Of a stretch of 64,000 nt of DNA, positions 57,245 to 64,000 are shown piece by piece. Each line of letters begins with the position of its first letter. Within the stretch, counting starts at the first letter, position 1. Origin of the DNA: Dehalococcoidia bacterium (GTDB lineage: Bacteria; Chloroflexota; Dehalococcoidia; GIF9; AB-539-J10); assembly GCA_016930935.1 (NCBI GenBank), contig JAFGFT010000072.1, positions 1-64,000 on the forward strand. The letters are read 5' to 3'. The translations under genes and the position numbers were made by a program. The notes below the pieces were generated by a model. It did no database searches. It saw only the letters and a program-made list of their open reading frames with translations, and had not been told where the DNA came from.

Positions 57245-57292
57245 TTGACAGTTGCCACATTGTGCGGCAAAATAGTAATGATTACGATTATC
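57245..57292 (+). promoter_or_regulatory. Promoter and Fur/PerR-type box of perR
   Basis: TTGACA (57245-57250) and CAAAAT (57268-57273) are 17 bases apart. The 19-base sequence at 57274-57292, read on the minus strand as GATAATCGTAATCATTACT, matches the classic Fur box at about 15 of the first 18 positions. It lies at the start site, suggesting autoregulation. No ribosome site precedes the ATG. Confidence 0.7.
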
Positions 57293-57299
57293 AATAACG

Positions 57300-57689
57300 A
57301 TGAGAACTACCAGGCAGAGAGAAGCGATTCTGAGAGTGGTACGGAGTGCGGATTCTCACCCTACCGCAGATGCTGTGTACGATGCGGTGCGAAAGGAGAT
57401 TCCCGGTATCAGCCTGGGGACCGTGTATCGCAATCTCAAGCTGCTCGCGGAGGCGGGCGAAGTAATGGCCATGGAGAATGCAGGCTGTTCGAGCAGGTTC
57501 GATGGGTGCACTGAGGTTCATCATCATTTCCGCTGCGAAGTGTGCGGGAGAGTGTTCGATGTCGCGGATATGCTCGGGAGCGATATTGACCGTGTAGTTG
57601 AAGCCCAGACGGGTTTTGAGGTGCGTGGGCACTGCCTGGAGTTTCGAGGTGTGTGTGCCAGTTGCGGGGAAGTGAGTGGGCGTGAGTGA
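57300..57689 (+). CDS. perR: Fur family transcriptional regulator, PerR-like
   Basis: 129 residues. The winged helix covers about 1-75 (RQREAILRVV, HPTADAVYDAV, ISLGTVYRNLKLL). The dimerisation domain has the regulatory metal segment HHHFRCEVCGRVFD near 75-90 and a second pair CASCGE near the end, giving a Cys4 zinc site. The short N-terminus suits PerR. Its position ahead of rubrerythrin, rubredoxin, flavodiiron and superoxide reductase genes supports peroxide sensing. A Fur role cannot be excluded. Confidence 0.88.
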   Translation: MRTTRQREAILRVVRSADSHPTADAVYDAVRKEIPGISLGTVYRNLKLLAEAGEVMAMENAGCSSRFDGCTEVHHHFRCEVCGRVFDVADMLGSDIDRVVEAQTGFEVRGHCLEFRGVCASCGEVSGRE

Positions 57690-57739: not shown

Positions 57740-58222
57740 ATGGCAGTATTTACGGCAAGCGAGTTGATCGACGTTGCGGTGGGGATTGAACGCAATGGTG
57801 TTGCGTACTATGGTTCACTTTCGGAGATTGCAGGGGATTCGTCGCTGAAAAAGACGTATGCGGACCTCGCGGACATGGAGCGACACCATGTGGAGCTCTT
57901 CGAGAAGATGAGAAGTGCCGTCAGCGACGAAGGAGCCGGGGCGCCGGAAATCGAGGAGGCCGAGTACGAGGCGTATCTGAATGCGCTCATCGATTCGTCG
58001 GTGTTCACCGATGACAAGGTAGCGAGGGAGCTTGCTCAGAAGGCTGCCGGCCCTGCTGAGGCACTTCAACTTGCTCTGAGGGCAGAAAAGGATTCAATTC
58101 TTTTCTATACGGAGATGCGCGAACTGGTTCCTCAGCGCGACCGCGAAGCTATCGACAACATTATCAAGGAGGAGAGGAAACACGTGCGGGAACTCTCCGA
58201 ACTGAAACAGCGCTATATGTAG
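57740..58222 (+). CDS. Ferritin-like di-iron protein (rubrerythrin family), first copy
   Basis: 160 residues, all helical. Two E...ExxH pairs are visible: Glu17 with E47-R-H-H50, and later Glu with EERKH near 150. It is therefore a four-helix di-iron domain without a rubredoxin tail. It may reduce peroxide using rubredoxin or another donor. AGAGGAG precedes the ATG. It starts 50 bases after perR. Confidence 0.85.
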   Translation: MAVFTASELIDVAVGIERNGVAYYGSLSEIAGDSSLKKTYADLADMERHHVELFEKMRSAVSDEGAGAPEIEEAEYEAYLNALIDSSVFTDDKVARELAQKAAGPAEALQLALRAEKDSILFYTEMRELVPQRDREAIDNIIKEERKHVRELSELKQRYM

Positions 58223-58236
58223 AGGAGGAAAAGGCG

Positions 58237-58761
58237 ATGCAGCAAGACTCGAAGCGGATGGAGATTCTCAGGAAGGCGATGGAGATCGAAGCGGCCGAGA
58301 AGGGCTACTACGAGAAGGCTGCGGCTGCGGCCGAGAACCCCATTGCCAAAAAGCTCTTCGAAAGACTGGCGTTTGAAGAGGATGCTCATGCGAAGAAGTT
58401 CCGTGAACTGGAGGCGCAACTGGGCAAGTCTGCAGACTGGCCTGCTGGGGAGGCTCCCTCCTGGGAGGGCAAGGAATTGAAACTGGTGTTCGCCGGTCTC
58501 AAGAGCGCGTCTCCGCAGGATGTGAAGGTCGCGAAGACCGAACTTGATGCAATGCAGGCAGCGATGGGCCGTGAGCTCCAGGCCTATGACATGTACCGGA
58601 CGCGAAGTGAGGAGAGTACGTCTCCTGCGGAGAAGAGGTTCTATCAGGTTCTGGCCGGTGAGGAGCGCATGCATCACCTTGCGCTTCTGGATTCATACGA
58701 GTACCTGACCGACCCCGCGGGCTGGTTCACTGTGAAGGAGAAATGGACGCTTGAAGGATAG
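58237..58761 (+). CDS. Ferritin-like di-iron protein (rubrerythrin family), second copy
   Basis: 174 residues. The di-iron pattern is Glu21 with EEDAH (47-51) and, in the second half, a Glu in GRELQAYDMY with GEERMHH near 148-154. The C-terminal DPAGWFTVKEKWTLEG tail is characteristic of this subfamily. No rubredoxin domain. Follows the first copy by 14 bases. Sequence identity to the first copy is low outside the metal motifs. Confidence 0.85.
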   Translation: MQQDSKRMEILRKAMEIEAAEKGYYEKAAAAAENPIAKKLFERLAFEEDAHAKKFRELEAQLGKSADWPAGEAPSWEGKELKLVFAGLKSASPQDVKVAKTELDAMQAAMGRELQAYDMYRTRSEESTSPAEKRFYQVLAGEERMHHLALLDSYEYLTDPAGWFTVKEKWTLEG

Positions 58762-58786: not shown

Positions 58787-59533
58787 ATGGATGATGTGAT
58801 GCTGTCGGTAGAGGGGTTGCGCGTTGAAGTCGGCGGCGTGGAGATATTGCATGGCATCGACCTGACCATCAGGTACGGGGAGACGGCTGCTCTGTTCGGG
58901 CCAAATGGCAGCGGCAAGAGCACCCTCCTCATGACTCTGATGGGTTTTCCCAAGCACGTCGTTGTTGGAGGTAGCATCATTTTCAAAGGCCAGGATGTCA
59001 CCGGAATGTCCGTCGATGAACGCGCCAGGCTCGGCATGGGAATCTCCTTCCAGAGACCGCCTGTCGTGCGAGGAGTGAAGACACGTGACATGGTTGGCGC
59101 CTGTCTGCGGCGCGAGGCGTCTGAGGGCGAACTTCGTGATATGGCTGCGGCTGCCGGAATGGAGGAATTCCTGGACCGCGACGTCAATTATGGTTTCTCC
59201 GGCGGAGAAATCAAGCGGTCGGAACTGCTACAACTCCTGGCGCAGAATCCTGACTTCGTGCTTCTTGACGAGCCCGAGTCAGGCGTTGACCTTGTCAACA
59301 TCGCCGTAATTGGCGACCTCATCAACAGGCTTCTGCAGAAGGATGTGCGGATTCGTGAACGGAGCCACTCTGGTCTCATTATCACGCATACGGGCCATGT
59401 CCTTGACTACGTGAGCGCACGCACGGGCTACGTCATGATTGACGGCCGGCTCTCATGCGGCGGCGATCCTCACGAAATCCTATCTACCATCAAGCAGCAT
59501 GGCTATGAGGAGTGCGCACAATGCGTGAAGTGA
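58787..59533 (+). CDS. sufC: SufC-like ABC ATPase of a minimal Fe-S assembly system
   Basis: About 248 residues. Walker A GPNGSGKST near 35, signature FSGGEIKRSELLQLL near 143 and Walker B VLLDEPESGVD. SGGEIKR(S/N)E is the SufC form of the ABC signature. It powers the SufB-type scaffold encoded next. The frame is open to 58751, but the ATG at 58787 follows GGAGGACCC. It overlaps the next gene by 13 bases. Confidence 0.93.
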   Translation: MDDVMLSVEGLRVEVGGVEILHGIDLTIRYGETAALFGPNGSGKSTLLMTLMGFPKHVVVGGSIIFKGQDVTGMSVDERARLGMGISFQRPPVVRGVKTRDMVGACLRREASEGELRDMAAAAGMEEFLDRDVNYGFSGGEIKRSELLQLLAQNPDFVLLDEPESGVDLVNIAVIGDLINRLLQKDVRIRERSHSGLIITHTGHVLDYVSARTGYVMIDGRLSCGGDPHEILSTIKQHGYEECAQCVK

Positions 59534-60747
59534 TACCTGAATCCGGCGATGCTCTCAAGGAAATGGCATCGTCGGCGGGTGCGTACAACGAACCTGATCC
59601 CGGTGCTTTCGTTGTTGACGCTCCCGATGTGCCCTACGTGGAAGACCCGTCCAGTCTGCCGGGCAAAGTGAAAGCACGGATGCTCCAGTCAGGCGTCATG
59701 ATTGACGACCTCTCTGGCAGGGCAGGAACCTTCATACAGGTGGACCACACTCCCGTGCATATCTCTCTGGCGCAGGACGGGATTGAGATGATGTCTGTGA
59801 GGGAGGCACGTGAGAAGCATGACTGGCTCTCCGACTATTGGTGGAAAGCAGTCGACGCCGACGCCGACAGGTTCACATCAAACGTGGACCATGGCGACTA
59901 CAACGGCTATTTCATCAGGGCGCTTCCCGGGCAGAAGACACTTCTGCCGCTGCAGGCCTGCCTATACCTGGACACGGATGGCCTTGCGCAGAATGTACAT
60001 AACGTCGTAATTGCGGAAGAGGGTTCAGAACTTCACATTATTACGGGGTGTACATCGGGTACACACAGTGGCATGGGGTTGCATCTGGGTGTTTCTGAGT
60101 TCTACGTGCAGAAGGGAGCGAAGCTGACATTTACGATGATTCATGATTGGCAACCGGGCATCTCGGTTCGGCCTCGCACAGGCATCATCGTTGAAGAAGG
60201 CGGTACTTTCCTGAGCAACTACGTCATCATGAAGCCCGTGAAGGATGTACAGACAAACCCTGTTGCACGCTGTGTGGGACCGGGTGCCACTGTTCGATTC
60301 AACTCAGTAATAGCCGGCTTCCCTGGAGGGCGGATGGATCTTGGTTCAACCGTGTATCTTGATGCGCCTGGCTCGCGTACGGAAGTTATCTCCCGTGCCA
60401 TCGCGGTTGGGGGCGAGATAGTTGCACGCGGCTACATCGAGGGAAACGCGCCTGACGTGAGAGGACATCTTGAGTGCCGTGGATTGATTCTCGACAAGGG
60501 TGGAGTCATTCACGCGGTTCCTGAATTGCGCGGCACGGTTGCCGGAATAGATCTCTCACATGAGGCGGCGGTTGGGAAGATTGCGGAGGAAGAGGTGCAG
60601 TACTTGATGGCGCGGGGGTTGACGCATGACGAGGCAGCAGCGACCATCGTTCGTGGCTTTCTGCACGTTGACATTGAAGGTCTTCCTGATGCCTTGAACC
60701 AGGAGATGCAGCGCGCTATCGAGGCGAGCGAAGGCGACCTCATGTAG
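59521..60747 (+). CDS. sufB: SufB/SufD-like scaffold protein (SMS type)
   Basis: About 408 residues. The core beta-helix has the [23 protein letters not shown] segment near 180 and the [25 protein letters not shown] and HECRGLIL-like segments in the second half. Only one scaffold gene is present with sufC, and sufS, sufU and sufA are absent. This suits the minimal SmsCB Fe-S assembly system of anaerobes and archaea. The ATG at 59521 lies within the end of sufC. Confidence 0.9.
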
Positions 60748-60953: not shown

Positions 60954-61850
60954 ATGACGACCAGCCCTCTTCTTCAGGGTAGCAGGACTGCTGACGCCCT
61001 GAAGCAAATGATTGCGAACGAGTCCGAGTCGTTTCAAAGATACTCGTACTACGCTGAATTGGCCAAGAAGGCAGGCCTTGAACAAACAGCTGACGTCTTG
61101 ACGGCGACGGCTCGAAATGAGGGTGAGCATGCTCATCGCGGACTCGCGTTTCTGTTGGGCAAGGCTGATGCCTCCAGGTTCCTCGACAATGCTGCCGAGA
61201 GAGAGAAGCGGGAGCGGACCGAGTCATTTGCGGACTTTGAGGGTATCGCACGTGCTGAAGGTTTCGGTGAGATTGCCGACTATTTTGCTGAAGTGATGAA
61301 GGCCGCTGAGAGACAGGAATACATGGTGAGGCTGCTCCGCGATGCTCTGAGTCACGGCCAGACTCTTGAGGGCAGGACTGTGAGCTACTCGGCGGTTGAC
61401 ATGGCGCAGGTCCTGCTGCCTGACCAGTCAAACGCTGCCGGCTACGTGCACGGTGGCGAATTGATGAAGGTCATGGACAATGCGGCCTGGGTCGTGGCAT
61501 GTCGTCACTCAAGAAAGAACGGCGTGACAGCCAACGTTGAAGAGATGAATTTCCACAGCCGTGTCAAGGTCGGCGATCTTGTGCTCATGCATGCGCGGAT
61601 AATCTATGCTGGCAGAACCTCCATGGAAGTGAGGATAGACGTCGAGACGGAGGACTTGTTCTCCGGCAGAAAAGTGAAAGCGCTGACTGCCTATTTCACG
61701 GTGGTTGCGATTGACGCCTACGGAAACCCAGCGTCTGTGCCGCCGCTGATTGTCAGTACGAAGGAAGAGGAAGACCTGTTTGCGGAAGGCAAGGCCCGCT
61801 ACGAGGCCCGCAAGAAACTACGGCAGTCGAAGGGAACGAAAGGAGCCTAG
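60954..61850 (+). CDS. Rubrerythrin-type di-iron domain fused to hot-dog acyl-CoA thioesterase
   Basis: 298 residues in one uninterrupted frame. Residues 12-132 are a rubrerythrin domain with Glu23, Glu56-x-x-His59, Glu87, Glu90 and Glu119 at the expected metal positions. The usual C-terminal rubredoxin domain is missing. In its place, residues about 141-255 form a hot-dog acyl-CoA hydrolase of the YciA/BFIT type: GRTVSYSAVDMAQVLLPDQSN, the YVHGGELMKVMDNAA helix with Asp175, and a VKALTAYFTVVAID strand. A charged tail ends the protein. The combination is unknown to me. It lies 3 bases after rubredoxin, so it should be translated with it. The thioesterase substrate is unknown. Confidence 0.85.
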   Translation: MTTSPLLQGSRTADALKQMIANESESFQRYSYYAELAKKAGLEQTADVLTATARNEGEHAHRGLAFLLGKADASRFLDNAAEREKRERTESFADFEGIARAEGFGEIADYFAEVMKAAERQEYMVRLLRDALSHGQTLEGRTVSYSAVDMAQVLLPDQSNAAGYVHGGELMKVMDNAAWVVACRHSRKNGVTANVEEMNFHSRVKVGDLVLMHARIIYAGRTSMEVRIDVETEDLFSGRKVKALTAYFTVVAIDAYGNPASVPPLIVSTKEEEDLFAEGKARYEARKKLRQSKGTKGA

Positions 61851-61854
61851 TGTT

Positions 61855-62241
61855 TTGAACAGTATGACCACAGAGCAATTCAGCGCGGTGATGGACGCCA
61901 TACCTATGGAACTGGCATTCATCGACGAGAAGGACAATCTTCGCTTCTGGAATCAGGCCGCAACGCGAAGTTCGGCGTGGCAGACTTCCTGCCTGGATAA
62001 TCCTGTGCAGGATTGCCATATGGAGAAGAGTCGTCCCGCGGTGAACAGCATCATTGCCAAGCTGAGGAGTGGCCAGAAAGATGTGGTGGATAGGACGATA
62101 GCAGGAAACGGAAAGGTCAAACGCCTCAGGTGGATTGCTGTCAGGAATGCGGACGGTGAGTACATGGGTACTCTCGAAATGGTGCAGGACGGTGCCGAAG
62201 TAGCAGGCATCTCGCAGGAAGCTGCCGCGAAACCCGATTGA
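61855..62241 (+). CDS. PAS domain protein (DUF438-type PAS), first of a tandem pair
   Basis: About 128 residues. A single PAS-like domain, LAFIDEKDNLRFWNQ near 20 to GEYMGTLEMVQD near 106. It resembles the PAS part of DUF438 proteins. The TTG at 61855 is preferred since AAAGGAG lies nine bases upstream; an ATG at 61864 is the alternative. It keeps the NPVQDCH motif but has diverged in the middle compared with the neighbour. No output domain. Ligand unknown. Confidence 0.72.
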   Translation: MNSMTTEQFSAVMDAIPMELAFIDEKDNLRFWNQAATRSSAWQTSCLDNPVQDCHMEKSRPAVNSIIAKLRSGQKDVVDRTIAGNGKVKRLRWIAVRNADGEYMGTLEMVQDGAEVAGISQEAAAKPD

Positions 62242-62254
62242 TGGGAGGATGGAC

Positions 62255-62644
62255 ATGATTGAGCATCTGACGGGAGAACAACTCGAGCGGGTCCTTGAGT
62301 CGCTGCCACTGGACATCTCTTTCGTGGACGCGAACGACAAGCTGAAGTACTGGAACAGGCATGAAACCAGGGTGTTTAAGAGGCCGTATTCCGCGCTCAA
62401 CACGCCTGTTCAGAAATGCCATCCAGAGAGGAGCGTGGACAAGGTCGAGCGCATCATTGAGGACTTCAAAGCAGGCAAGAGAGACATGGCGGAGTTCTGG
62501 ATAGATATGCGTGGTATGAAACTCTATATCCGCTACTTCCCTGTGAGGAGCGCGACCGGAGAATATCTGGGCACACTTGAGGTGGCCCAGGAGGTATCCA
62601 GGATTCGCGAACTTGAGGGACAGAAGCGGCTACTCGATGAATAG
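62255..62644 (+). CDS. PAS domain protein (DUF438-type PAS), second of a tandem pair
   Basis: About 129 residues. LDISFVDANDKLKYWNRHETRVF, TPVQKCHPERSVDKVERII, the AEFWI strand and YFPVRSATGEYLGTLEVAQE match the PAS domain of DUF438 closely, including the RELEGQKRLL end. GGGAGG is six bases before the ATG at 62255; an ATG two codons earlier abuts it. It is a paralogue of the preceding gene. It may sense a gas, haem or redox state for the operon, but no ligand is shown. Confidence 0.8.
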   Translation: MIEHLTGEQLERVLESLPLDISFVDANDKLKYWNRHETRVFKRPYSALNTPVQKCHPERSVDKVERIIEDFKAGKRDMAEFWIDMRGMKLYIRYFPVRSATGEYLGTLEVAQEVSRIRELEGQKRLLDE

Positions 62645-62656
62645 AAAGGACGGCGT

Positions 62657-63841
62657 ATGAGACCTCGAAAAGTGTGTGACGGTATTCAATGGGTAGGGGC
62701 AATCGACTGGGAGAGAACCCTTTTCGATGAGTTGATTCCTCTTCCCGATGGCACAAGCTACAACGCGTACCTGGTGACCGGTTCGGAGAAAACGGCACTT
62801 GTGGATGCGGTGGACCCGACGAAGAACGACGTACTCTGCTCCATGCTTGACACAGCGGGTGTCAAGAAGCTGGACTACGTGGTTGCCAACCACGCGGAGC
62901 AGGACCATTCAGGTAGCATCCCGTTCATGCTTGAACGGTATCCCGAGGCGCAGCTTCTGTGCAGCACGAAGGCGAAGGGTATGCTCGTGGACCTGTTGCA
63001 GATTCCCGAGGAGCGCATCGTTCCTGTCGCGGATGGTGACACTGTCTCACTGGGTGATATGACGTTGCAGTTCATTCATGCTGCCTGGGTGCACTGGCCT
63101 GAGACTATGCTCACCTATGTACCTGAGCGACGGGCACTTCTGTCCTGTGACCTGTTCGGGTCTCATCTGGCCACTCCCGACCTGTTCGTCTCTGACCCTG
63201 CGAAAGTCTACAGGTCGGCGAAGCGCTACTTCGCCGAAATAATGATGCCGTTCCGAACGAACATCGTGAAGCACATGGAGAAACTGGCTGACTATGACAT
63301 CGATATCATCGCGCCAAGCCATGGACCGCTTCATGACAAACCTGCGTTCATCATGGATGCCTACAGGGAGTGGGTGTCCGGTCCGCCGTTGAACAAAGTC
63401 GTGATTCCTTACATATCCATGCATGGAAGCACGCAGGTGCTAGTGGATAGATTGGTCTCGTCGCTGTCGGACAAGGGAGTGATGGCTGTGCCGCACTATC
63501 TGTCGTCGGGTGACACCGGACGGCTCGCGATGGAACTTGTGGACACGGGTACCGTCGTTCTTGGTACGCCGACCGTTCTGGCAGGGGCGCATCCGCTCGT
63601 GGCCTACGCGGCCATCCTGGCAAATGCCCTGAGGCCCAAGGTGCAGTTTGCCTCTATCATCGGGTCGTATGGATGGGGAGGCAAGGCAGTTGACCAACTG
63701 GTGTCGCTGGTGCCGAATCTGAAGGTGGAAGTGCTGGCTCCTGTGCTTGTGAAAGGATACCCGCGTGAAGCAGACCTCCAGGCGATCGACGCATTGGCTG
63801 CGCTCATCGCGGAGAAACACGGTGCATCGAATCTGAAATAG
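62657..63841 (+). CDS. fprA: Flavodiiron protein (FprA family A-type flavoprotein)
   Basis: 394 residues. The metallo-beta-lactamase-like di-iron domain has HAEQDH (79-84), the WVHWPETM histidine, the CDLFGSH aspartate and the APSHGP histidine. The C-terminal flavodoxin domain begins IPYISMHGSTQVLVD near 257. It reduces O2 to water or NO to N2O using rubredoxin. It ends 44 bases before the superoxide reductase gene. Confidence 0.95.
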   Translation: MRPRKVCDGIQWVGAIDWERTLFDELIPLPDGTSYNAYLVTGSEKTALVDAVDPTKNDVLCSMLDTAGVKKLDYVVANHAEQDHSGSIPFMLERYPEAQLLCSTKAKGMLVDLLQIPEERIVPVADGDTVSLGDMTLQFIHAAWVHWPETMLTYVPERRALLSCDLFGSHLATPDLFVSDPAKVYRSAKRYFAEIMMPFRTNIVKHMEKLADYDIDIIAPSHGPLHDKPAFIMDAYREWVSGPPLNKVVIPYISMHGSTQVLVDRLVSSLSDKGVMAVPHYLSSGDTGRLAMELVDTGTVVLGTPTVLAGAHPLVAYAAILANALRPKVQFASIIGSYGWGGKAVDQLVSLVPNLKVEVLAPVLVKGYPREADLQAIDALAALIAEKHGASNLK

Positions 63842-63885: not shown

Positions 63886-64000
63886 ATGAGAATTGGAGAT
63901 GTTGTGAAGACCGCTTCTGCTGAAGGGAAAGAGAAGCACACGCCGGTCATTGAGGTGGGCAAAGGCAAGGGAGAAGCCGGCGCCGATATTGTCCACGTGG
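63886..64000 (+). CDS. Superoxide reductase (neelaredoxin/desulfoferrodoxin type), truncated by the window end
   Basis: Only the first 38 codons are seen. The GKEKHTPVIE segment (residues about 14-23) contains the EKH-P motif with the lysine and first histidine ligand of superoxide reductase iron. No N-terminal desulforedoxin Cys domain precedes it, so it is a class II (neelaredoxin-like) start. AAGGAGGA precedes the ATG. Its place after fprA and rubredoxin supports the call. Confidence 0.8.
   Translation, partial: MRIGDVVKTASAEGKEKHTPVIEVGKGKGEAGADIVHV

Follow-up and report, generated by a model that had tools for sequence, protein, structure and literature searches.

A conserved protein joining a rubrerythrin-derived domain to an acyl-CoA thioesterase in a bacterial oxygen-defence operon

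Rubrerythrins exist in classical, reverse and rubredoxin-less forms, and the members described in portions of a 2016 survey either carry a rubredoxin or consist of one domain (PMC5114695). A survey of hot-dog proteins distinguishes 18 architectures, names no ferritin-like partner and never mentions 'ferritin'; in its CBS-, HAD- and 3HCDH-associated 'Rosetta' fusions the hot-dog domain is joined to a functionally linked partner (PMC516016). The hot-dog thioesterase YciA has a catalytic aspartate, D44, assembles as a trimer of dimers and is under strong feedback inhibition by CoA (PMC10560148). Oxygen-defence modules of anaerobes include rubrerythrin, rubredoxin, flavodiiron protein, superoxide reductase and PerR.

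The protein described here touches all of these systems. It is encoded in a 64,000-nucleotide stretch (the window) of contig JAFGFT010000072.1, assembly GCA_016930935.1. With rubrerythrins it shares a four-helix ferritin-like domain, the ligand pattern of the family in most orthologs and a rubredoxin gene or domain nearby. Unlike classical rubrerythrins, it has a thioesterase in the place of rubredoxin, and the window copy is without two of the seven ligands. With TE6 thioesterases (YciA HI0827 and ACOT7/BACH) it has in common the hot-dog domain, an HGG motif at the start of the central helix (the histidine as in ACOT7) and an aspartate and asparagine of the catalytic type, and its C-terminal tail resembles that of the ACOT7 C-domain. 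However, it is joined to a rubrerythrin domain rather than forming a single or double hot dog. A hot-dog domain fused to a partner recalls the 'Rosetta' proteins, and the surrounding genes are those of an anaerobe oxygen-defence module to which an acyl-CoA thioesterase has been added. A search of PubMed Central found no publication combining rubrerythrin, thioesterase and fusion; ten contain the first two words, neither of them in title or abstract. Both domains are of known kinds and their combination is apparently undescribed, in line with the sequence-only reading from which this analysis started.

The fusion gene and its distribution

The gene is a single uninterrupted frame from ATG to stop, and the other two frames hold stops. 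That it encodes a rubrerythrin domain followed by a YciA-like thioesterase where rubredoxin would normally sit had been proposed from the sequence, and Pfam bears this out. PF02915 (Rubrerythrin) matches residues 15-116 (E=5e-8, 33.8 bits, cut-off 22.8) and PF03061 (4HBT) matches residues 163-234 (E=1e-17, 64.7 bits, cut-off 20.6). The match of the first domain to a rubrerythrin profile settles one of the points named beforehand on which the assignment could fail. Among solved structures, residues 7-128 lie nearest to the rubrerythrins 9fj2 and 1b71 (E 1e-13 to 1e-12), with sulerythrins matching too. Residues 139-283 lie nearest to the ACOT7 C-domain (E about 1e-48 for the whole two-domain chain) and match single-domain bacterial acyl-CoA hydrolases and YciA more weakly. 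The linker is nearly absent: the helix D region of the rubrerythrin domain ends at about residue 135 and the hot-dog domain begins at about residue 139. A full-length structure model from two sequences has a mean pLDDT of 40 and carries no weight here.

Full-length versions are found in 13 species of one class, spread over four family codes (f1, f2, f47 and f64). Ten copies besides the query, with 43-66% identity, came from a search of 61 relatives, and two more (G111 and G184), in other orders, from a profile search across the class (393 genomes). Judged by one relative, MAG JAUVZB010000041, the class is Dehalococcoidia, and the carriers are uncultured Chloroflexota. Because 13 species carry it at full length, the fusion is not an assembly or frameshift artefact. 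A chimera joining two genes, also named beforehand as fatal to the original reading, is ruled out by the same junction in 13 independent genomes and by the open frame, and the linker holds neither a frameshift nor an assembly join. The product is a genuine two-domain protein and a conserved fusion.

Among 400 genomes of the phylum searched at a threshold of 1e-40, the matches listed from outside the class are all thioesterase-only. A single-sequence scan of 85,000 species matched only the sister species; such a scan needs exact short peptide patterns and is weak evidence of rarity. Plasmids gave 310 matching records, none covering 80% of the query and, among the matches listed, with the thioesterase only. 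The fusion is absent from the viral contigs searched. Proteins with a rubrerythrin domain occur on 78 contigs of the viral collection (L144-L221), some of them longer than 100 kb.

In a tree of the rubrerythrin domain the fusions form one clade (support 83/57). In the thioesterase tree the G184 copy branches apart from the main group of fusions, at an open fork. On these trees a single origin of the fusion is conceivable.

The di-iron and thioesterase sites

The metal residues were at first thought to be kept, which does not hold for the window copy. In Desulfovibrio vulgaris numbering, the di-iron ligands of rubrerythrin are E20, E53, H56, E94, E97, E128 and H131. Aligned to the D. vulgaris protein, the window copy keeps five of the seven (E23, E56, H59, E84 and E87) and has lost both of those in helix D, where A118 stands for E128 and Q121 for H131; this helix contains no histidine. 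The only fused congener (L023:6596-7474) has instead K23, C59 and D87, which correspond to E20->K, H56->C and E97->D. All other orthologs, 11 of the 13, have the complete set. Ligand decay therefore seems, from these alignments, to have gone separate ways within the genus. A one-residue register shift in helix D could bring E119 and E122 near the metal site as substitutes, but the congener aligns to the window copy through helix D without gaps.

The thioesterase site has had a different history. All 13 orthologs carry N160, H166-G167-G168 and D175 unchanged. D175 aligns with the conserved M-D of the ACOT7 C-domain, the HGG also aligns with ACOT7, and N160 is presumably equivalent to ACOT7 N24. 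The HGG and aspartate are retained in the stand-alone thioesterase relatives aligned as well. Against the NCBIfam YciA equivalog (NF007970) the protein scores 57.9 bits, below the cut-off of 162; by sequence, the thioesterase half belongs to the same superfamily as YciA and is not a YciA ortholog.

The two halves also differ in rate. The stem of the window's genus carries 0.97 changes per site in the rubrerythrin-domain tree versus 0.42 in the thioesterase-domain tree, on branches flagged as long. Ratios of rubrerythrin to thioesterase log-distance are 1.3-2.2 (mostly 1.5-2.2) for pairs involving the two genus members and mostly 1.0-1.6 for other pairs, with a few exceptions of 1.7-3.1 that come mostly from close relatives, where the ratio is noisy. 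By these values, the rubrerythrin half in this genus diverges at roughly double the rate of the thioesterase half. Against the NCBIfam rubrerythrin equivalog (NF045767) the protein scores 68.5 bits, below the cut-off of 200, and no rubredoxin-like domain, as in the classical form, is found in the chain; rubredoxin is encoded separately. On these comparisons, what the window protein contains is best described as a rubrerythrin-derived domain, rather than the protein being a functional rubrerythrin. Other PF02915 proteins are encoded in the same genome, including one of 211 aa on a different contig whose rubrerythrin ligands are apparently complete.

Ligand loss and faster divergence in the genus are what would be seen if the rubrerythrin domain set only the oligomeric state or location of the protein and had never acted with the thioesterase, operon membership reflecting shared stress regulation. 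Rubrerythrin and TE6 thioesterases both oligomerise, which suits such a scaffold. This explanation is nevertheless unlikely: the seven ligands persist in the other 11 orthologs, in pairs down to about 42-44% domain identity, which argues for selection on metal binding outside the genus.

The same intact sites could serve a redox-gated thioesterase, in which detection of H2O2 or O2 by the di-iron domain would turn the attached enzyme on or off. The near-absent linker would permit conformational coupling between the domains, and for the CBS-associated hot-dog subfamily regulation by the attached domain has been suggested (PMC516016). In the window's genus, however, each of the two fused members has lost ligands, and different ones, while the thioesterase residues stayed invariant, and gating of this kind is for that reason rather improbable. 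It also follows that the job of the thioesterase in this genus cannot depend on an intact di-iron site. The original proposal that peroxide sensing or reduction is coupled to acyl-CoA release is accordingly weakened for this organism, although the orthologs with seven ligands may have such coupling.

The operon in the window and in relatives

The gene order in the window is PerR, RbrA, RbrB, SufC, SufBD, rubredoxin, the fusion, two PAS proteins, flavodiiron protein and superoxide reductase (Table 1), with a 1-Cys peroxiredoxin next on the contig (PF00578, L022). Each intergenic gap from PerR through the flavodiiron gene is at most 50 nt. An oxygen-defence operon around the fusion, with a free-standing rubredoxin 3 nt upstream, was part of the sequence-only reading, and both features were recovered when the neighbouring genes were identified by Pfam, NCBIfam and comparison with the loci of relatives. 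The rubredoxin probably starts at the ATG behind an AGGAGG, not at GTG 60753. Upstream of PerR, the best-scoring PerR-box-like site lies at 20-28 bp in all eight loci checked, with 2-4 mismatches.

Table 1. Features of the fusion locus, in window coordinates
Feature	Coordinates	Strand	Basis and remarks
PerR/Fur-box-like site TGATTACGATTATCA	57279..57293	+	2 mismatches to TGATAATNATTATCA; best site in window; 21 bp before PerR-like gene
PerR/Fur-family regulator	57300..57689	+	PF01475 E=2e-29; best NCBIfam model PerR, below its cut-off
Rubrerythrin-like ferritin-family protein A (RbrA)	57740..58222	+	PF02915; two ExxH motifs
Rubrerythrin-like ferritin-family protein B (RbrB)	58237..58761	+	PF02915; two ExxH motifs
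SufC-type ATPase	58796..59533	+	TIGR01978 189.8 of cut-off 212.8; start codon chosen, upstream starts possible
Single SufB/D core protein, nearest SmsB/SufB	59512..60747	+	PF01458; NF052511
Free-standing rubredoxin, 54 aa	60786..60950	+	NF045768 106 bits, over cut-off
Fusion gene, rubrerythrin domain + TE6-type acyl-CoA thioesterase	60954..61850	+	298 aa, ATG start
Rubrerythrin-type four-helix domain	60972..61358	+	Residues 7-135; PF02915, alignment to 1b71/9fj2, ortholog ligand table
Hot-dog acyl-CoA thioesterase domain	61368..61820	+	Residues 139-289; PF03061, ACOT7/YciA relatives
Small PAS_10 protein 1	61864..62241	+	PF13596
Small PAS_10 protein 2	62249..62644	+	PF13596
Flavodiiron protein (O2/NO reductase type)	62657..63841	+	PF19583 ODP; NF008887 215 bits, below cut-off
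Desulfoferrodoxin/superoxide reductase, gene start; continues past window	63886..64000	+	PF01880; L022 (contig 56000-71461)

Several neighbours deserve mention in their own right. SufC and the single SufB/D-type protein nearest SmsB (58796-60747) resemble a minimal SMS-type Fe-S system within an oxygen-defence operon. The slot of the rubredoxin is filled in relatives by a flavin-reductase–rubredoxin fusion. The latter has no match in the window genome at E 1e-40 and is matched in 46 of 61 genomes searched; its reductase half seems to have been lost here. The two single-domain PAS_10 proteins in tandem (61864-62644) correspond in many relatives to one such protein or to a longer PAS protein of about 400 aa. 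Directly beyond the peroxiredoxin gene lies a 2-oxoacid:ferredoxin oxidoreductase pair (L022:9303-11829, contig about 65302-67828).

In 12 of the 13 species the fusion lies within, or adjoins genes of, a conserved oxygen-defence and Fe-S operon and runs in the same direction. The shared genes encode PerR, rubrerythrins, SufC/SufBD, flavin-reductase–rubredoxin, PAS, flavodiiron protein, superoxide reductase and peroxiredoxin. The slot varies: after flavin-reductase–rubredoxin (L023, L024), beside RbrA/RbrB (L025, L031, L032), between a thioredoxin-reductase-like protein and IscS or rubrerythrin (L026, L027, L029, L030), beside rubredoxin and flavodiiron protein (L028), or between RbrA and flavodiiron protein (L065). 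The operon, whole or partial, occurs without the fusion in 20 relatives chosen by their flavin-reductase–rubredoxin gene. Since many relatives have the operon alone and the slots differ, the operon core is old and the fusion is an accessory that has repeatedly been kept there.

Unfused close relatives of the thioesterase are encoded at other loci. One (L067:8004-9602) is followed first by a PNPOx-like gene and then by the gene for a rubrerythrin that has rubredoxin-like domains. Another shares 4 nt with the end of a peroxiredoxin gene (L071:6370-7490), and a third is about 1.1 kb from a peroxiredoxin gene (L068).

A possible role in acyl-CoA turnover

We tentatively favour the view that the protein is an acyl-CoA hydrolase induced by oxygen, and that the di-iron domain attached to it was ancestrally a peroxidase and is degenerating in the window's genus; role and coupling are both read from sequence and gene context. 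Entry of O2 or H2O2 would lead PerR to derepress the operon, assuming co-transcription and PerR control. Acyl-CoA oxidation would stall as its Fe-S and ferredoxin-dependent partners are hit, acyl-CoA would accumulate, free CoASH would drop and reduced acyl-CoA dehydrogenases would leak electrons to O2. Autoxidation of reduced flavoenzymes is a source of H2O2. The thioesterase, if active on such substrates, would hydrolyse the surplus acyl-CoA, restoring CoASH and cutting the electron supply. Feedback inhibition by CoA, as in YciA, would leave it free to work at low CoASH. The di-iron domain of most orthologs might remove H2O2 on the spot, drawing electrons from the rubredoxin encoded next to it. 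Where this site is decaying, as in the window's genus, the domain is probably mainly a structural or oligomerisation module.

Some observations bear on this hydrolase model from outside the fusion itself. Three related genomes (L067, L071 and L068) in which an unfused close thioesterase lies near a redox gene count in its favour. Most unfused close thioesterases in the stretches checked have no redox neighbour, which counts against it, as does the sole exception to the operon context, the G184 fusion (L066), whose neighbour is presumably the gene for arginyl-tRNA synthetase. Dehalococcoidia of lake sediments have been described as scavengers of fatty and aromatic acids (PMC11650866), and 15 acyl-CoA dehydrogenase-family proteins are encoded in the genome of the window; these proteins count in favour of the model, as do the 2-oxoacid:ferredoxin oxidoreductase pair beyond the peroxiredoxin gene and the PerR-box-like site before PerR. 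No match to CdhC/AcsB was found in that genome, a further point against the model.

Whether fusion genomes are richer in acyl-CoA dehydrogenases was compared across 61 genomes. The association has p=0.02 raw and p=0.11 per Mb and is not significant within families; the enrichment is thus not clear after correction for genome size, which again weighs against the model.

An acyl-CoA-rich metabolism, suggested by those 15 proteins, and the operon context would also suit a thioesterase that removes peroxidised or otherwise oxidised acyl-CoAs while the di-iron domain reduces acyl hydroperoxides; removal of oxidatively damaged acyl-CoAs was also proposed in the sequence-only reading. Strict anaerobes, however, usually have few polyunsaturated acyl chains, nothing among the residues or neighbours is specific to lipid peroxides, and the di-iron site of the window copy is incomplete, all of which make such damage clearance a poor prospect.

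A bolder reading concerns the orthologs with intact sites. There, a peroxide-responsive di-iron domain might gate or locally protect the thioesterase, giving a one-protein switch that halts acyl-CoA-fed electron flow on contact with oxygen, and the window's genus would be losing the sensor while keeping the enzyme. We regard this reading as quite doubtful.

The position of the fusion in an oxygen-defence operon suggests that an inflow of oxygen prompts these bacteria to reduce their acyl-CoA. Two independent signs, the fusion of the genes and its place in the operon, would tie acyl-CoA and CoASH homeostasis to oxygen and peroxide defence in anaerobes. This link does not usually figure among the defences listed for anaerobes, and it can be tested directly. 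The differing evolutionary fates of the two halves within one genus may serve as a natural experiment on whether the iron site controls the thioesterase.
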